Positions 1,481 to 9,725 of a stretch of 64,000 bases of DNA are shown here, piece after piece. This stretch comes from Nitriliruptoraceae bacterium (GTDB lineage Bacteria; Actinomycetota; Nitriliruptoria; Nitriliruptorales; Nitriliruptoraceae), in NCBI GenBank assembly GCA_007121785.1, contig SKJX01000047.1, positions 1-64,000 of the forward strand. Reading direction: 5' to 3'. A program made the translations under genes and the position numbers. Below the pieces are notes generated by a model. The model was given only the letters and a program-made list of their open reading frames with translations, searched no databases and was not told where the DNA came from. Every line of letters begins with the position of its first letter. Position 1 is the stretch's first letter.

Positions 1481-1508
1481 CTGACGGGTGGAGGTCGTGC
1501 CGTACACT
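1481..1508 (+). promoter_or_regulatory. Putative mpa promoter
   Basis: CTGACG (1481-1486), 16 nt, then TACACT (1503-1508) fits a sigma-70-like promoter. The predicted transcript would start near 1515 and give a leader of about 55 nt before the GTG of mpa. This is the start of the Pup-proteasome block. Confidence 0.45.
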
Positions 1509-1568
1509 CCTCTGGTCCCGGAGGGGCACCACGGGCCCTTCGGTCCCCGACCCGCCAGGAGGCCAGTC

Positions 1569-3425
1569 GTGGCTCGCATCGGAGCGTCGTCGGGCGATGG
1601 TCCCGACCGTGATCACGACCAGCGTGCGGACACCGGCCAGGATGCCGCGGCCAGGTCCTCGGACGCCTTCGAGCAGCCGCTACCCGAACGAGAGCTTCGC
1701 GATCCGGACGAGATCGAGGATCCCGACGAGCTGCGCGGTGAGCTCAAGGTCATGCGCGAGGAGCTCGACCTGCTGCGTCGGCGGCTCGAGAGCGCGCCGA
1801 CGCGGATCCGGGTGCTCGAAGAGCGGCTGCTCGAGACCAAGGGGCAGCTCCAGGGCGCGCTCACGCGGAACGCGAAGCTGACCGAGACCCTGCGCTCTGC
1901 GCGCGAACAACTCGATGGGTTGAAAGAGGAGGTGGAGCGCCTCTCCGCCCCACCGCAGACCTACGGGATCCTGCTGGCGGTCAGCGACGACGGCGAGACC
2001 GCCACCGTCAACGTCGGCGGGCGCAAGCTCGAGGTCGGCGCGAGCCCGGAAGTCGAGCTCGACCAGCTGGAGCCGGGGCAGCAGGTCCGGGTCAACGATG
2101 CGATGAACGTGGTGGCCGGTGCCGGCTTCGACGACCGCGGTGAGATCATGTCGATCGCGGAACTGCTGGACGATGGGCGGGTCCTCGTCCTCGGCCATAC
2201 CGACGACGAACGCGTCGTCGCCCTCGCCACACCGCTGCACGAGCTGCCGCTGAAGGCCGGCGACTCCCTGCTGGTCGATCCGCGCTCCAACACCGCCATC
2301 GAGCGGGTCCCGAAAGCCGAGGTGGAGCAGCTGGTGCTCGAGGAGGTCCCCGACGTCACCTACGAACAGATCGGTGGGCTCGGGGACCAGGTCGAGGCGA
2401 TCCGTGACGCGGTCGAGCTGCCCTACCTCCATGCCGACCTCTTCGTGGAACATGAGCTCCGCGCCCCGAAGGGCATCCTGCTCTACGGCCCGCCCGGCTG
2501 CGGCAAGACGATGATCGCCAAGGCGGTGGCCAACTCGCTGGCGCAACGCGTGGCGGAGAAGACCGGTCAGGAAGGGGTCCGCAGCTACTTCCTCAACGTC
2601 AAGGGACCGGAGCTGCTGAACAAGTACGTCGGCGAGACCGAGCGGCAGATCCGCCTGATCTTCCAGCGGGCGCGCGAGAAGTCCGCCGAGGGCTTCCCGG
2701 TCATCGTGTTCTTCGACGAGATGGAGTCGCTGTTCCGCACCCGTGGGTCGGGGGTCTCCTCCGACGTGGAGACCACGATCGTCCCGCAGCTGTTGGCGGA
2801 GATCGACGGTGTGGAGTCGCTCAAGGACGTCGTGGTCATCGGTGCGTCGAACCGCGAGGACATGATCGACCCCGCGATCCTGCGACCAGGTCGACTGGAC
2901 GTGAAGATCAAGGTCGACCGGCCTGGGGCGGACGCTGCTCGCGAGATCTTCCGCATCTACCTGCACGAGCAGTTGCCGCTGTTCGACACCGAGGTGTCCG
3001 CTGCCGGCTCCGAGGCGGAAGCCGTCCGCCGCATGATCGACCGGACGGTCGAGAAGATGTACAGCGCGGACGAGGACAACGAGTTCCTCGAGGTCACCTA
3101 CGCCAACGGCGAGAAGGAGACCCTGTACTTCAAGGACTTCAACTCCGGTGCGATGATCGAGAACGTGGTCGCGCGAGCGAAGAAGCTGGCGATCAAGCGG
3201 CTCATCGACGATGGTGACCGAGGGCTGCGCACCGACGATCTGATCACGGCCATCCGCGACGAGTTCCGCGAGAACGAGGACCTGCCGAACACGACGAACC
3301 CGGACGACTGGGCCCGGATCAGCGGCAAGAAGGGGGAGCGGATCGTCTACGTCCGGACGCTGATCAGTGGCGACGACGAACCGGGACGATCGATCGAGAA
3401 CATCAACCCGGGGCAGTACCTCTAG
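1569..3425 (+). CDS. mpa: Proteasome-associated AAA ATPase (Mpa/ARC)
   Basis: Hexameric unfoldase that recognises pupylated substrates and feeds them into the 20S proteasome. The 618-residue protein has an N-terminal coiled coil that binds Pup in the family ([21 protein letters not shown] onward), then two OB-fold interdomain segments, then one AAA module. Walker A GPPGCGKT lies near residue 307 and Walker B VIVFFDE near 378; the arginine-finger region ([19 protein letters not shown]) is present. It ends in GQYL, the conserved tail that docks on the proteasome alpha ring. I chose the GTG at 1569 because AGGAGG lies about 7 nt upstream; a longer frame exists but has no such site. dop follows 66 nt downstream. 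Confidence 0.97.
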
Positions 3426-3491
3426 CCGGTCGGGCGGCGGGTACCCGCCGCCCGGGCCGACGACGTGCGCCTACGACCCAGCGGAGCATGC

Positions 3492-4979
3492 GTGGCGACA
3501 CCCAAGTACGTCGGGATCGAGACCGAGTACGGCATCGCCGTCGACGGTCCCACGGAGGTCAACCCGGTCCTGGCGTCCTCGCTGGTCGTCGGTGCCTACC
3601 GGGATGCCGGGGAGCGTGACGTCGTCTGGGACCACTCGGACGAGCACCCGTTGCGTGACGCCCGTGGCTACGAGGTGCCCGACCCCCACGAGCCCGTCGT
3701 CGACGACGAACTCGGGCTCGCCAACACCGTGCTGACCAACGGATCGCGGTTCTACGTCGACCACGCCCACCCCGAGTACTCCAGCCCCGAGTGCTCCAAC
3801 GCCCGCGACCTGGTGATCTGGGACAAGGCCGGTGAGCGGATCCTGGAAGACGCTGCCGCCCGGGCAGCGACGACCCTGCCGCCCGGCAGCCGGGTGCTGG
3901 TGCACAAGAACAACACCGACGGCAAGGGTGCGGCCTACGGGACCCACGAGAACTACCTGGTGCCCCGGTCGGTGCCGTTCGGTCGGCTGACCCGCCAGCT
4001 CCTGCCGTTCTTCGTCAGCCGGACCGTGTTCGTCGGCGCGGGACGGCTCGGGAGCGAGCTGAGCGACGAGGTGCCCTTCCAGCTGTCGCAACGAGCGGAC
4101 TTCTTCGAGGTCGAGGTGGGGCTGGAGACCACACTGAAGCGGCCGTTGATGAACACCCGCGACGAGCCGCACGCCGATCCGGAGCGGTACCGGCGGCTCC
4201 ACGTCATCAACGGTGACGCCAACCTGTGCGAGGTGGCGACGTTCCTCAAGGTCGGCACGATGCTCCTGCTGCTCGACCTCATCGAGGACGACGCCCTGCC
4301 GGAGGTGCCCGCGCTCGCCGAGCCGGTGACGGCTTTCCACCAGGTCAGCCATGACCTGACCTGCGCCCGGCCGCTCCGCTTGGAGGACGGGTCGACCGCG
4401 ACGGCGCTGGAGATCCAGGGCCAGTACCTGGAGGCCTGTCGCCGCTACGTGAAGGATCGTGACGCGGACCTCGACCCGGTCACCGCCCAGGTCCTGGAGC
4501 GATGGGAGGCGGTCCTGGCGCTCGCGGCCGACGATCCCCGCTCGTTGGCCGGTCAGGTCGACTGGGCGACCAAGCTCGAACTGATGGAGAGCTACCGCGG
4601 TCGCCATGGTCTGGGGTGGGAGAGCGACCGGTTGAAGATGGTCGACCTGCAGTACCACGACGTGCGTCGCGAGAAGGGCCTGTTCCACCGGCTGGTGTCG
4701 CGGGGCCGGATCGAGCGGTTGGTGGGCGAGGACGAGGTGATCGCAGCCATGCACGCCCCGCCGACCGACACCCGTGCGTGGTTCCGGGGCGAGTGCATCC
4801 GACGGTTCCGCCGCCAGATCGTCGCGGCGGGCTGGGACTCGTTGATCTTCGACGTCGGCGGGGAGGCGCTCCAGCGGGTCCCGATGATGGAGCCGGGCCG
4901 GGGCACGCGCGACGCGCTCGGTCCCCTGTTGGACGAGGTCGATGACGCTCAGCAGTTGCTCGAACGGCTCACCGGATGA
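3492..4979 (+). CDS. dop: Pup deamidase/depupylase
   Basis: Converts the C-terminal glutamine of Pup to glutamate and also removes Pup from substrates. It belongs to the carboxylate-amine ligase fold shared with PafA. About 495 residues, typical of Dop. The N-terminal GIETEYGIAV carries the metal/ATP-binding glutamates; VDHAHPEYSSPEC and HKNNTDGKGAAYGTHENYLV are the nucleotide and catalytic loops. The Dop-specific insertion after GIETEYG (about residues 30-75) separates it from PafA. GTG at 3492 is preceded by GGAG with 5-nt spacing; an upstream GTG at 3465 is in frame but less well placed. Its presence fits the Pup encoded next door, which ends in GGQ and so needs deamidation. Confidence 0.96.
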   Translation: MATPKYVGIETEYGIAVDGPTEVNPVLASSLVVGAYRDAGERDVVWDHSDEHPLRDARGYEVPDPHEPVVDDELGLANTVLTNGSRFYVDHAHPEYSSPECSNARDLVIWDKAGERILEDAAARAATTLPPGSRVLVHKNNTDGKGAAYGTHENYLVPRSVPFGRLTRQLLPFFVSRTVFVGAGRLGSELSDEVPFQLSQRADFFEVEVGLETTLKRPLMNTRDEPHADPERYRRLHVINGDANLCEVATFLKVGTMLLLLDLIEDDALPEVPALAEPVTAFHQVSHDLTCARPLRLEDGSTATALEIQGQYLEACRRYVKDRDADLDPVTAQVLERWEAVLALAADDPRSLAGQVDWATKLELMESYRGRHGLGWESDRLKMVDLQYHDVRREKGLFHRLVSRGRIERLVGEDEVIAAMHAPPTDTRAWFRGECIRRFRRQIVAAGWDSLIFDVGGEALQRVPMMEPGRGTRDALGPLLDEVDDAQQLLERLTG

Positions 4980-5043: not shown

Positions 5044-5247
5044 GTGAGCGACGGCGGGCAGGAACGCAAGGACGGTCGCACACGCGACGAGGAGCCTGAG
5101 GAGCAGGTCGAGACCGGCACGCAGGCGGATGACTCGACACAGGAGGTCCTCGACGACGTCGACGAACTGCTCGACGAGATCGACGACGTGCTCGAGGAGA
5201 ACGCGGAGGAGTTCGTCCGCGGCTACGTCCAGAAGGGCGGCCAGTAG
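5044..5247 (+). CDS. pup: Prokaryotic ubiquitin-like protein Pup
   Basis: The 67-residue protein modifier for proteasomal degradation. It is acidic and disordered at the N-terminus (ERKDGRTRDEEPEEQ), then carries the Mpa-binding helix (QEVLDDVDELLDEIDDVLEENAEEF would be its extent, about residues 37-59), and ends RGYVQKGGQ. The final Gln must be deamidated by Dop before PafA can couple it to lysines. GTG start; an AGAGGAACGGG purine stretch lies upstream. The last 31 nt of its coding sequence are duplicated exactly at 8764-8794, just before prcB, so pup and prcB, normally adjacent, are now separated by 3.6 kb. Confidence 0.97.
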   Translation: MSDGGQERKDGRTRDEEPEEQVETGTQADDSTQEVLDDVDELLDEIDDVLEENAEEFVRGYVQKGGQ

Positions 5248-5248
5248 G
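5214..5248 (+). repeat. Direct repeat, left copy (3' end of pup; attL-like)
   Basis: A 35-nt segment covering the last codons and stop of pup. It matches 8764-8798 at 34 of 35 positions: 31 identical nt, then T versus C in the stop codon, then AGG identical. Similarity stops abruptly on the left side (5204-5213 does not resemble 8754-8763) and fades within about 20 nt on the right. That is the pattern expected of a site-specific recombination core placed at the 3' end of a gene. Confidence 0.8.
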
Positions 5249-6152
5249 ACACCAGCTCCGCCGGGGTGCCAGGATGTGGCCGCTGCGGGCGATCCCAACG
5301 GTTCCGCGTCTCCCGACGTCGGTTCCTTGCGTCACCTGGCGCCATGGGGTCACCGTGAGCCAGATGGGTCGAGATCCCAGCATCTGTGGGCTCGTCAGGG
5401 GCGTTCTGGGGACTGGTCCCCAGCATCCAGGCCTTCTTGAGGGTGACCGGCGTCTGGGCACGAGGAAGCTGCCGCCGTCGAGCCAGGCAGCCGTTCGACC
5501 GAGGACGTGCAGCGGTACGACATAGCCCTCGACGCCGCTGAACCCGCCGGTCGCGAGGGCCGGTCCGAGCTTGCTGTTGTCGTGTACACCGGCGCTGAGG
5601 TGGCTGCGGACCGAGGGGTCGATACCTCAGCTCTGGAACTCCTTCGCTCGATACCCGACCGAGCCCCGGCCGGTGAACGGACCGACGGCCGTCGAAACGG
5701 TCGGTCGGTTCGTCGTGGTCCGTCCACGTGATGAGGCCCGTGACTGAGCCGTGTGCCCGGCTCGGTCGCTCGGATGGGTTCGCTCCTCGAGCATCGAGGC
5801 CGGACGTTCCCTCAGCAAGCATCCGCGGCCGGGTCACCCACTCCCAAGGGCAAGACCCCGTTGGGCCCTATTCGTGGGTGGGGGATCCGGGCGATACTGG
5901 GTGAACGGAGGCCGGTGGTTCAGGTCTCGACCTGGCAGGGAGGGCCGCGATGGCGTGCTCAGAAGCGTCGACACGTCCTCAGCCCCCCGGGCGGGACGGA
6001 CGATCACAGGCTCCACGGCCGAACCGGCTGAAGTCCCTTCCTTCGTAGCGTTTCGAACGTCGCGTCTGCACGTAGCCCGCCGAGGTCTGCTGCAACCAGG
6101 GCGTCGGTACGGCGCCCCCTCCTGCGCGTGAAGCACCGAGAGGAGGTACATC
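5249..6152. other. Gene-poor stretch, left part of the pup island
   Basis: About 900 nt with open frames on both strands but none with family-like composition, a ribosome-binding site and sensible length together. The base composition is a little lower in GC than the flanks. A perfect palindrome, CTGGGGACTGGTCCCCAG (5406-5423), stands out and could be an operator; CCCAGCATC occurs before it and at its right arm. I see no RNA gene. Confidence 0.5.
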
Positions 6153-6560
6153 ATGCCCACAAGGGCAGAACACGACACGAAGGAACGCGAGGCAACAGCG
6201 ATCCAGCGAGTCGCCCGGAGAAGGGCCCTCGTCGCACTGGCTGTGATCCTTCTGGGTCTGTTGTCGATCGGGACCACCGCATGCCTCGGCGCATTCCCAT
6301 ACGGCTCTGGCGCCGAAACGGTCGAGGGGAAACTCGTGTCGGTCCGATTCGCGATGCCATTCGACCCAGGGAGTGGTGCGTTGGAGGTCGTGGAGGTGAC
6401 GGGACTGACCGTCGATACCGAGGACTACGGGATAGTCGAGGTCGAGATCAGCGACGAGGAAGCAGGGAGCCTTCCCGAGACGTTGAGCGAAGGCCAAGGT
6501 GTGACGATCGAGCGAACGGACGCCGATGGTCTGTGGCGGTTCGTATCTATCGAGCGATGA
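6153..6560 (+). CDS. Predicted lipoprotein or secreted protein, unknown
   Basis: A 135-residue protein with an excellent ribosome-binding site (AGGAGG, 7 nt before ATG). Residues 1-24 are charged; about 25-43 are hydrophobic (LVALAVILLGLLSIG) and end in TTAC, a relaxed lipobox, so it is probably exported and may be lipidated. The mature part is acidic with beta-rich character (VEGKLVSVRF, LEVVEVTGLTVDTEDYGIVEVEI). I recognise no family. Third-position GC is visibly lower than in the proteasome genes on either side (codons such as aca, gaa, cca, gga are common), consistent with acquisition. Its stop overlaps the next start (ATGA), suggesting coupling. Confidence 0.65.
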   Translation: MPTRAEHDTKEREATAIQRVARRRALVALAVILLGLLSIGTTACLGAFPYGSGAETVEGKLVSVRFAMPFDPGSGALEVVEVTGLTVDTEDYGIVEVEISDEEAGSLPETLSEGQGVTIERTDADGLWRFVSIER

Positions 6561-7168
6561 CACCGCCGCCTCTCTGGAGCTTGGGCTACCGACCAGCGCA
6601 AAGCCGTGGCTTGCGTGAGGTGTACTTCGTCCGGGGCGTCCCCCGGGGCTGTGTCGCGGTCCACGTCCTCTCTGCTCTGTCGGCCCTGCGGATCGAGGAC
6701 GCCGTGCTCGCCCCGATACACCTCAACGCGACCACGGACGAGTTCGGGTGGCGGGAGTGGACGAGCTTTCCTCGGGTGGCGACCGACCTGCTCCAGCAGC
6801 GGCGGCTCGTCGACGCTCCCCGCTCGAAGGCCAAGTCGGTCACTCCCACCGTCGAGGGAGCACGCCTCGCAAAGCAACGGTTCGCTGGGCCCTTCGGACC
6901 GAGCGGTGACAACGTCGGTGTCGGGGGGCTGACCTGGGCTGATGTTCGCCGTGGTGGGGGACTCGACACGACTGGCTTCCGTCGGGGCCCACGAGCCGGT
7001 GATGGGCATGAACGAGGATGCGATGCGCCGCATGACGGCCGACGTCGACCCTCGAGATCCTGCCCGGTGCGACGCACCTCTTCGAGGAGCCGGGCGCACT
7101 CGAGCGTCTCGCCGAGCCGGGCGCGGATCGCGTCCTTCCACCTGGGCGATGGGCAGCAGGCCGGGTAG
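6557..7168 (+). CDS. Possible winged-helix protein, 3' part doubtful
   Basis: Starts at an ATGA overlap with the lipoprotein gene. About residues 15-115 look coded: LSALSALRIEDAVLAPIHL, then TDLLQQRRLVDAPRSKAKSV and TPTVEGARLAKQRF, which resembles the recognition-helix and wing region of MarR-like winged-helix proteins. This is pattern similarity, not a family assignment. After about residue 130 the frame turns into basic low-complexity sequence and overlaps a decayed hydrolase fragment in other frames, so the original stop may have been lost. It could be a truncated regulator fused to non-coding sequence. Confidence 0.35.
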   Translation: MTPPPLWSLGYRPAQSRGLREVYFVRGVPRGCVAVHVLSALSALRIEDAVLAPIHLNATTDEFGWREWTSFPRVATDLLQQRRLVDAPRSKAKSVTPTVEGARLAKQRFAGPFGPSGDNVGVGGLTWADVRRGGGLDTTGFRRGPRAGDGHERGCDAPHDGRRRPSRSCPVRRTSSRSRAHSSVSPSRARIASFHLGDGQQAG

Positions 7169-7185
7169 ACCCCCGGCTGCGGTGA
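6942..7185 (+). pseudogene. Dienelactone hydrolase-family C-terminal fragment, frameshifted
   Basis: Two frames join into one recognisable protein end. The first (ATG 6942) reads VGAHEPVMGMNEDAMRRMTADVD, and about position 7043 the match moves by one base to LEILPGATHLFEEPGALERLAEPG, ending at TGA 7183-7185. The joined sequence matches the last strand-helix pair of dienelactone-hydrolase-like alpha/beta hydrolases, including the PGATHLFEEPG motif with the catalytic-type His. The N-terminal three quarters and nucleophile are absent. A one-base insertion or sequencing error would explain the shift; the missing 5' part argues for true decay. Confidence 0.55.
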
Positions 7186-7230
7186 CGGAGACGACGGTCA
7201 TGGGGTCGGCAGCCCGTGGCCGAGCGTTCC

Positions 7231-8343
7231 TCAGGCCCACCGCAGGGACAGCCGCCCCTCAGGGCTCTGCTCGACTCCCGTGCCGAAGGGCCGGCTGACC
7301 CGGTCGAGGACGCCGCCCAGCCAGTGGATGTCCTGCGGTGTGGTGTTGGCCAGTCGCATCCGGCGGGCCTGGAACGGCACCAGGCGCACGGCGGTCAACT
7401 CGCCGTTCCCGAGGCGGAGGGAGACCAGATAGGCGATTCGGAGGTCGTCGCGGTAGGCCTCGTGGCCCGATATCCCCTCGTAGTCGTTCACGAAATCCCC
7501 ACACCCGTACAGCACGAGCCGGCCGCGGTAGACCTCGATGGGTCGGGGATGGTGGGACGAGTGCCCGTGGACGACGTCCACGCCCCCGTCGACCAGGGCG
7601 TGGGCGAATCGCGTCTGCTTGCGGGCGACCTCGTAGCCCCAGTTGGAACCCCAGTGGATCGAGACCACCACGAGGTCGCCCGGTCGTTTGTGTTCGGCGA
7701 CCACCCGCACCACCTGGTCGGCGTGGTCGGTGTCGGCCTCGGGCAGTAGCGCCACCCCCGGCCGTGCCCGGCCGGCGGCCCAGTCCGCTGGCACGCCGCT
7801 GGAGCGCATCCCGACGGCGAGCACGACCACCCGCCCGCCGGCCGCCAACGGCACTGTCGCCGGCCGCCAGGCCTCGGCACGGTCGCGTCCGGCACCCGCT
7901 GCCGGCAGCCCGGCGCCCTCGAGCGCCCGGAGGGTGTCCTCGAGGCCGCGGTGACCGAAGTCCAGGAGGTGGTTGTTCGCCAGCACGCAGACGTCCGGTC
8001 GTGCGACCCGCAGCGCGGGAAGGTTCTCCGGCGTCATGCGGTAGTGGACGGCCTTGCCCGGCGCGAAGTCGTCAGAGCGCGTGACGGCGTTCTCGACGTT
8101 GATGATGCGGGCATCGATCGCCGCCGAGTCGAGCACCTCGAGCGCCTCGCCCCAGGGCCAGGCGACGTCCACCGGGCGAGGAACCGGCCCGTTGGCCCGC
8201 TCGGCCATCGTCACGTAGCTGCGGGCATCGGTGACGGAGGGCTCCCGCAGGGTGGGGTCGCCGGGGTGCGGCAGGATCTGGTCGATCCCACGGCCCAGCA
8301 TGACGTCGCCGCAGAGGAAGAGGGTCACCTCATCGTCACGCAC
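7231..8343 (-). CDS. CapA-family metallophosphatase-like protein
   Basis: A 370-residue member of the CapA/PGA_cap family (poly-gamma-glutamate biosynthesis-type, metallophosphatase fold). Seen motifs: FLCGDVMLGRGID near residue 10, INVENAVT, NNHLLDFG, SIHWGSNWGYE and the strongly conserved VDVVHGHSSHHPRPIEVY, all metal-binding loops of the family. No signal peptide is evident, so this may be a cytoplasmic relative rather than the capsule protein; the true substrate is unknown. GTG at 8343 has GGAG about 8 nt upstream. It overlaps the stop of the HTH gene by 8 nt, so the two probably form one unit. It lies inside the putative island yet has host-like GC. Confidence 0.85.
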   Translation of the reverse strand: MRDDEVTLFLCGDVMLGRGIDQILPHPGDPTLREPSVTDARSYVTMAERANGPVPRPVDVAWPWGEALEVLDSAAIDARIINVENAVTRSDDFAPGKAVHYRMTPENLPALRVARPDVCVLANNHLLDFGHRGLEDTLRALEGAGLPAAGAGRDRAEAWRPATVPLAAGGRVVVLAVGMRSSGVPADWAAGRARPGVALLPEADTDHADQVVRVVAEHKRPGDLVVVSIHWGSNWGYEVARKQTRFAHALVDGGVDVVHGHSSHHPRPIEVYRGRLVLYGCGDFVNDYEGISGHEAYRDDLRIAYLVSLRLGNGELTAVRLVPFQARRMRLANTTPQDIHWLGGVLDRVSRPFGTGVEQSPEGRLSLRWA

Positions 8344-8626
8344 GGGGCCCGCTCCGGCGATTCGACGACTCGCTGTCTGCCACCTCAGGATACGTACCGT
8401 TTGGTCCGTCGCCGGCGTAGGCACGCGGTCGTCGCGACCCGGACGCTGTGCCCGATGGCGGGGGGATGACGTGCCGCGGGTGGCCGACGTCGTCGGGGCG
8501 CCAACGCAGCGCCTCGCCGATGTGGACCGGCTGGAGGACGGTGGGGTCCCCGCGACGCACCCGGTCGACGGTGTTGACGTGGACGTTGAGCCAGCCGACG
8601 ACCTGCTGGTGTGTGAGGAGACGCAT
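8336..8626 (-). CDS. Excisionase/AlpA-like helix-turn-helix protein
   Basis: A 96-residue protein with a strong ribosome-binding site (GGAGGAA, 5 nt before ATG). Residues 3-50 follow the MerR-type excisionase pattern: LLTHQQVVGWLNVHVNTVDR, then RRGDPTVLQPVHIGEALRW and RPDDV, matching the helix-turn-helix, wing and closing R..D.V of the HTH_17/AlpA class. The remaining 45 residues are low in complexity. Such proteins are recombination directionality factors or small regulators. It lies 138 nt from the right-hand repeat, as an Xis gene would, but members also serve as ordinary repressors. Its stop overlaps the CapA-like gene. Confidence 0.6.
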   Translation of the reverse strand: MRLLTHQQVVGWLNVHVNTVDRVRRGDPTVLQPVHIGEALRWRPDDVGHPRHVIPPPSGTASGSRRPRAYAGDGPNGTYPEVADSESSNRRSGPRA

Positions 8627-8754
8627 CGTTTCCTCCAAGACGGTTCGGTGGCGTACGGTGGCAGCGTGTGGCCGGGTTCGGACGTTCCCCATCGCCCGGG
8701 GGTCACCGGGGACCTTGTAGGTTTCAGCCGTTCTCTCGAGTGTCTGTGGTGGTC

Positions 8755-8760
8755 TACGTT
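8755..8760 (+). promoter_or_regulatory. Possible -10 box for prcB at the island edge
   Basis: TACGTT ends 3 nt before the right-hand pup repeat. If used, prcB would be transcribed from island sequence with a leader of roughly 137 nt. No good -35 is visible, so support is weak. Confidence 0.25.
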
Positions 8761-8763
8761 CTC

Positions 8764-8798
8764 CGTCCGCGGCTACGTCCAGAAGGGCGGCCAGCAGG
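8764..8798 (+). repeat. Direct repeat, right copy (attR-like)
   Basis: Matches 5214-5248 with one mismatch. It would encode RGYVQKGGQ but reads CAG where pup has the TAG stop, so no Pup could end here. No start codon or upstream Pup sequence accompanies it: only the 3' tip is present. It lies 105 nt upstream of prcB, about where pup should end in the ancestral pup-prcB arrangement. Confidence 0.8.
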
Positions 8799-8903: not shown

Positions 8904-9725
8904 GTGACCATCAGTGACGACCGAGGGTGGACCGGCTTGTCCACGCCGTTCGATCCGCAGGGCTCGTCGTTCTTCGAGACCCTCCGGCGGATGGCCCCGG
9001 ACGCGGTGCCACCGGTGATGGCCACCGGCTCGATCCCGCCGGAGCTCCAGGCGCAACTGGTCGAGGGCACCACGGTGCTCGCGGTCGTCGCCCACGGGGG
9101 CGTGGTGATGGCGGGGGATCGGCGCGCGACCGCTGGCAACCAGATCTCGCGCGGGGACATGCGGAAGGTCTTCCCTGCGGACGACTCGTCGGCGATCGCG
9201 GTCTCCGGTGCGGCGGGCCCGGCCATGGAGCTCGCCAAGGTGTTCGCGACCGAACTCGAGCACTACGAGAAGGTCGAGGGCGAGCCACTCTCGTTGGAGG
9301 GTCGGTCGACCAAACTCGCTGGGATGGTCCGCGCCCACCTGCCCATGGCGATGCAGGGCCTGGTGGTGGTCCCGCTGTTCGCCGGTGTCGACCGACGTAC
9401 CGGCGAAGGGCGGATCTTCGAGTACGACCCTGCTGGTGGCCGCTACGTCGCCACGGAGCAGGCGGCGACGGGCAGCGGTTCGCTCGCGGCTCGCGCGACG
9501 CTCAAACGGCTGGCCGACCCCGATGGCGACGTGGAGACGGCCGTCGGCACCGCGGTCGAAGCCCTCTACGACGCCGCGGAGGAGGACAGCGCGACCGGCG
9601 GCCCCGACCTGATCCGTCGCATCTACCCGATCGTCGCGGTGATCGATGGCGGCGGTTACCGCGAACTGGACAGTGACGAGGTGGCGACGCACGTCGACAC
9701 CGTGGTCGCATCCCGGCAACGATGA
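8904..9725 (+). CDS. prcB: Proteasome subunit beta
   Basis: Catalytic subunit of the 20S core. The 273-residue precursor has a 55-residue propeptide and the processing site EG|TTVLAVV, making Thr56 the N-terminal nucleophile after self-cleavage. The beta fold follows (GGVVMAGDRRATAGNQI with the Asp and Arg near the active site, a Lys in RKVFP, SGAAGPAMELAK). Length is typical. GTG start with AAGGAGG 6 nt upstream. prcA follows after 77 nt. Its normal upstream partner pup is displaced by the putative island, so it must have its own or a read-through promoter. Confidence 0.97.
   Translation: MTISDDRGWTGLSTPFDPQGSSFFETLRRMAPDAVPPVMATGSIPPELQAQLVEGTTVLAVVAHGGVVMAGDRRATAGNQISRGDMRKVFPADDSSAIAVSGAAGPAMELAKVFATELEHYEKVEGEPLSLEGRSTKLAGMVRAHLPMAMQGLVVVPLFAGVDRRTGEGRIFEYDPAGGRYVATEQAATGSGSLAARATLKRLADPDGDVETAVGTAVEALYDAAEEDSATGGPDLIRRIYPIVAVIDGGGYRELDSDEVATHVDTVVASRQR

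Follow-up and report, generated by a model that had tools for sequence, protein, structure and literature searches.

What has parted pup, the gene for the bacterial counterpart of ubiquitin, from prcB in the Pup-proteasome locus of this uncultured member of the Nitriliruptoraceae, and why does a copy of the last codons of pup stand on either side of the intervening DNA? The window, i.e., the whole stretch of DNA that was analysed, makes up the first 64 kb of a contig of 70 kb; the draft genome it comes from has 3.8 Mb in 251 contigs and is 88% complete. The relatives used for comparison belong to the same small class (66 genomes), Nitriliruptoraceae being the family. The locus keeps the usual Pup-proteasome order: a Mpa/ARC-type gene (1488-3425) and dop (3465-4979), both read from the sequence, are followed by pup (5044..5247, + strand; 67 codons plus stop), prcB (8904..9725, + strand), then prcA and pafA. 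A sequence-only reading of the window had proposed that a segment splits pup from prcB, and the Pfam assignments of the two genes bear this out (PF05639, E 1.5e-23, residues 4-67, and PF00227, E 7e-36, respectively). The tail of pup is intact, reading VRGYVQKGGQ and then stop, with the PF05639 match running to the last residue.

The inserted segment (5249..8763, no strand assigned) occupies the 3.5 kb between two direct copies of a 35-bp sequence, both on the + strand. The left one, attL-like (5214..5248), comprises the last codons and the stop of pup, while the right one, attR-like (8764..8798), carries CAG at the position of the stop and is therefore not the end of a working pup. The two are 34/35 identical and start 3550 bp apart, as first described, and their left edge is indeed sharp (GTT at 5211-5213 vs. 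CTC at 8761-8763). Rightwards, an ungapped extension gives 41/45 over 45 bp, the weaker identity reaching 5258 and 8808; the copies agree at every one of the first 31 bp (5214-5244, as far as the last sense codon of pup), which confines the four differences to the last 14 bp. The repeat is far beyond chance, its local alignment score being 37 vs. a maximum of 21 in 6000 GC-matched 45-mers, and a search of the 3.8-Mb draft assembly for the 35-mer, allowing T or C at the stop, returned these two copies and no other. A hairpin within the repeat was not significant, and no inverted repeats were found near the ends of the segment, which counts against a classical transposon.

The spacing on both sides of the insert points to where the DNA entered. 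On the left, dop and pup lie 65 bp apart, which is normal among relatives; on the right, 106 bp separate the stop position of the right copy from prcB, in agreement with the pup-prcB spacing of insert-free relatives (93 bp in G010, 125 bp in G021). This is most simply read as an entry of DNA at the original end of pup, which the right copy would mark, with duplication of that end. Junctions without any insert and with a single tail, the evidence that the sequence-only reading had asked for in close relatives, are found in G010, G021, G005 and G017, all from other genera of the family, whereas in the same-genus G001 and G003 the junction is occupied by other genes, so that the empty-site comparison rests on other genera and not on a near-isogenic strain. 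An insertion that restored the 3′ end of pup is well supported and represents the best reading of the locus.

The interior of the insert is a patchwork of foreign DNA, composed of a scrap of an ISL3-family element, decayed fragments (as the sequence-only reading had noticed) and one horizontally acquired gene. The segment as a whole occurs in none of the relatives, and its pieces match unrelated places. The low GC content ascribed to the interior holds only around 6000-6750 (about 0.64), the part with the acquired gene being higher (0.74-0.75). The ISL3-family scrap (5761..5859, - strand) is 99 bp long, lacks a transposase and is 77-90% identical to the ends of complete elements found in other genomes, which encode a PF01610 transposase; its interpretation as a noncoding RNA was rejected, as it has no Rfam family and corresponds to the end of the ISL3 element. 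An insertion sequence of this family is scattered across Nitriliruptoraceae (G006, G003, G025, G022, G035, and G017), with a strongly conserved, hairpin-like end. Further on lie a 135-aa ORF (6153..6560, + strand) with an N-terminal hydrophobic stretch and no family match, and a DUF6429-like fragment (6688..6897, + strand; PF20008, E 4.4e-9) resembling copies elsewhere in G009, G008, G023, and G018, with DNA matches of 74-76%. A decayed coding fragment follows (6996..7117, + strand), 80% identical to a stretch of G018:C205, which by eye reads like the C-terminus of a hydrolase.

The one clear gene is of the PGA_cap type (capsule-synthesis/metallophosphatase-type; 7231..8340, - strand; PF09587, E 4.9e-79). 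Its product is 60-65% identical to homologues in 13 relatives regardless of kinship, whereas the identity of PrcB drops with distance (84% to G003, 78% to G001, and 57% to G052). Neighbours of the PGA_cap gene were common in 2 of the 11 loci compared (L229 and L235) and the contexts were otherwise mostly different, in a comparison of flanks by tblastx that mostly returned spurious GC-rich matches. The flat identity of PGA_cap, the falling identity of PrcB and the scarcity of common neighbours indicate that the PGA_cap gene moves horizontally.

A 96-aa ORF (8336..8626, - strand), preceded by a good ribosome-binding site (GGAGG) and HTH-like by eye, had been taken for an excisionase-like gene, an assignment that no family match supports. 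The ORF matches no Pfam or NCBIfam family and hits only phrog_1467 (E 0.0038), a PHROG of unknown function; no clear relative appeared in 45 genomes, phages or plasmids, and its AlphaFold model is of low confidence (pLDDT 59). The insert ORFs that were tested include no recognisable integrase, relaxase or phage gene, nor does the insert hold genes for conjugation or mobilisation.

If the tail of pup served as an attachment site, it might be expected to recur as one. A clear second tail beyond pup was present in the window only (27 loci tested), and it was lacking from some 25 further loci in which a gap follows pup. The nearly complete genome G014 has a weak, partial second tail 361 bp after the pup tail (G014:C4:127137-127160; L092, oriented 1832-1866), with 19/20 identity in its core and a p value of 0.002 as a single test, i.e., about 0.05 when corrected for the 27 loci. 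When 397 genomes of the phylum were scanned with the tail pattern, the matches listed included no other genome with two nearby copies. As to integrases in other genomes, no tyrosine recombinase lay near pup among the hits listed for 32 genomes, which comprised all but the weakest. No attP matching the pup tail was found in the phage, plasmid or viral records searched, which are incomplete collections. Twelve viral contigs with the tail pattern were rejected as attP candidates, as in 10 of them the tail belongs to a pup gene and in the other two the match lies in unrelated coding sequence. Several phage contigs do carry pup, complete in L125, L128, L130, L132, L134, and L124 and truncated where the contig stops in L127 and L133, and in L125, L127, L130, L133, and L134 it is on one contig with genes for terminase, portal, head protease or capsid (PHROGs); a quick search found no literature report of a phage-encoded Pup.

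Other tail-like sites were discarded. G039:C21:7259-7282 (L135) is the 3′ end of a small lipoprotein gene, which ends VRLSVQKGGQ-stop and matches the pup end of the same genome at about 29/32 positions, some 10 bp past the stop included. The site in G049:C70 is at chance level given the control matches of the pattern, and in G202 and G241 the pup tails lie on two different contigs and are not repeats, both of them standing in pup-like frames in G202. In agreement with the sequence-only reading, which knew of no report of pup in this role, no literature report naming pup as an integration site was found, and papers from the group behind the TIGER island resource do not mention it as such in their main text.

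The junction itself has a history of its own in the family. As the sequence-only reading had it, pup and prcB are as a rule neighbours outside the class, lying within about 260 bp of each other (80 PrcB loci of a named collection); L174, L197, and L211 depart from this pattern, and some of the loci showed no pup upstream. Among genomes of the class with both genes on one contig, the distance is 0 in G005 and G017 and about 0.1 kb in G010 and G021, 1-3 kb in G033, G004, G029, G014, and G022, 3.7 kb in the window, 4.4 kb in G035, 4.9 kb in G001, 5.8 kb in G025, 6.7 kb in G034, 7.7 kb in G026, 8.3 kb in G031 and 8.6 kb in G009, and it reaches 14.2 kb in G048, from another family of the class; in G003, where the genes are on two contigs, the gap is at least 4 kb. 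In the same genomes prcB and prcA are always 36-147 bp apart and dop and pup in most cases 40-107 bp, a few pairs reaching as much as 1.6 kb. The gaps are filled by differing genes: an NMT1-type binding protein, an ABC ATPase and a creatininase in G001, a P-type ATPase and an acyl-CoA dehydrogenase in G003, an esterase, a penicillin amidase and an AMP-binding enzyme in G009, histidine kinases in G014 and G025, and an NMT1-type binding protein, a TRAP transporter and Usp in G026. Mobile-element genes were absent from the 20 ORFs scanned in the gaps of relatives. The pup-prcB junction, split in most genera of Nitriliruptoraceae, is a lineage-specific insertion hotspot, newly described here, that houses differing ordinary genes. 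Four genomes of one genus (G013, G024, G028, and G032; 1.1-1.7 Mb) have kept pup, with no prcB found, which would fit pupylation without a proteasome.

As to the mechanism, site-specific integration of a foreign segment into the 3′ end of pup, leaving what is now an immobile and partly decayed remnant, has in our judgement about an even chance of being right. The incoming DNA would have brought a matching end of 31-35 bp, so that pup kept an intact tail, the present left copy, while the displaced original end would have stayed before prcB as the right copy and later lost its stop by a T to C change. The integrase may have acted in trans or been lost later, and PGA_cap would be the one clear cargo gene of the remnant. 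That a site-specific recombinase made the insertion, as well as this order of events, we infer: such an enzyme is the likeliest maker, given that free spacer adjoined and the exact copy nonetheless falls on the 3′ end of a gene. Against it count the lack of an integrase, of a family for the HTH-like ORF and of any element found with a pup-tail attP, together with the appearance of the interior, whose IS scrap and fragments look older than a 34/35 repeat suggests. The integration proposed by the sequence-only reading thus stands as far as the insertion, the intact tail and the native spacing are concerned, and falls short on integrase, excisionase, attP and recurrence.

The absence of an integrase and of recurrence leaves a repair-type insertion as a rival, which we regard as possible though on the unlikely side. 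DNA would have been captured at a staggered break or a template switch at the end of pup, with fill-in copying 31-45 bp of target on both sides, and pup would have survived since its end chanced to lie within the copied stretch; genes would gather at the junction simply as it lies between two transcription units, with no recombinase targeting it. The patchwork interior with its IS scrap agrees with this, as do the junctions of the relatives, with their metabolic and transport genes, none of the scanned ORFs of mobile-element type and a second tail almost never. Nonetheless, an exact copy of 31-35 bp placed on the coding end of a gene, with a spacer of ~106 bp adjoining, is more typical of the use of an attachment site than of repair. 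Should site-specific integration be extended to the whole family, a group of related integrating elements would attach time and again at the 3′ end of pup, and their repeated arrivals and decay would have made the hotspot, with the window as the youngest scar and G014 as an older one, a scenario that we consider unlikely.

A segmental duplication appears decidedly doubtful. It would require a second pup before prcB, of which all but the last 35-45 bp were deleted, and a separate arrival of the other DNA. The right copy is oriented like pup and the similarity stops abruptly on the left, as it would after a deletion, but the spacing of both copies (pup-prcB and dop-pup) is native, which makes one insertion simpler, and two full tandem pup genes occur in no genome of the class. 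An assembly artefact joining reads from several species through the pup tail, which is identical over at least 24 bp between species and within which contigs end in other drafts of the class (G020, G023, and G041), is highly improbable, as the genes on both sides are closest to the same two congeners (Dop 85-88%, PrcB 79-84%, and PrcA 80-85%) and the CAG of the right copy is present in no real pup end, so that no join to the pup of another species can have produced it. Those contig ends were not taken for mixed populations either, the sequence common to species being the better explanation.

Genomic islands such as SGI1 and its relatives target the 3′ ends of protein genes (trmE, dusA) and restore them (PMC8409611). 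The insert resembles them in that the repeat is the 3′ end of a conserved gene, near-identical on both sides, the gene is restored intact and foreign DNA lies between the copies; it departs from them in having neither an integrase nor a recognised excisionase and nothing for conjugation or mobilisation, in being only 3.5 kb long and partly decayed, and in the gene concerned, pup. As the integrase is a defining feature and proved absent on testing, we do not class the insert as an integrative island. CIME-type remnants are segments flanked by att sites that lack an integrase, and the insert shares with them the att-like ends, the cargo and the missing recombinase, while the search of relatives, phages, plasmids and viral contigs, collections that are incomplete, gave no intact kindred element that uses this attachment site. 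Insertion sequences and transposons with a target-site duplication likewise leave a direct repeat around the inserted DNA, and an ISL3-family scrap does lie inside. Such duplications are short, however, far below the 31-35 bp seen here, and the insert has no inverted repeats at its ends and no transposase, the scrap being a 99-bp end only. The insert works like the remnant of an integrative island, with att-like flanks but devoid of a recombinase, at a gene for which no report of this role was found, and pup is a plausible but unproven attachment site.

If confirmed, pup, the gene of a small and highly conserved protein, would join the short list of 3′-end landing sites that are restored on integration, and a pup-specific recombinase would offer Actinomycetota a tool for site-specific work. 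Whatever becomes of the attachment-site reading, the otherwise tight neighbourhood of pup and prcB has been split many times in Nitriliruptoraceae by different genes, and this repeated splitting bears on the transcription and evolution of the Pup-proteasome locus in the family.
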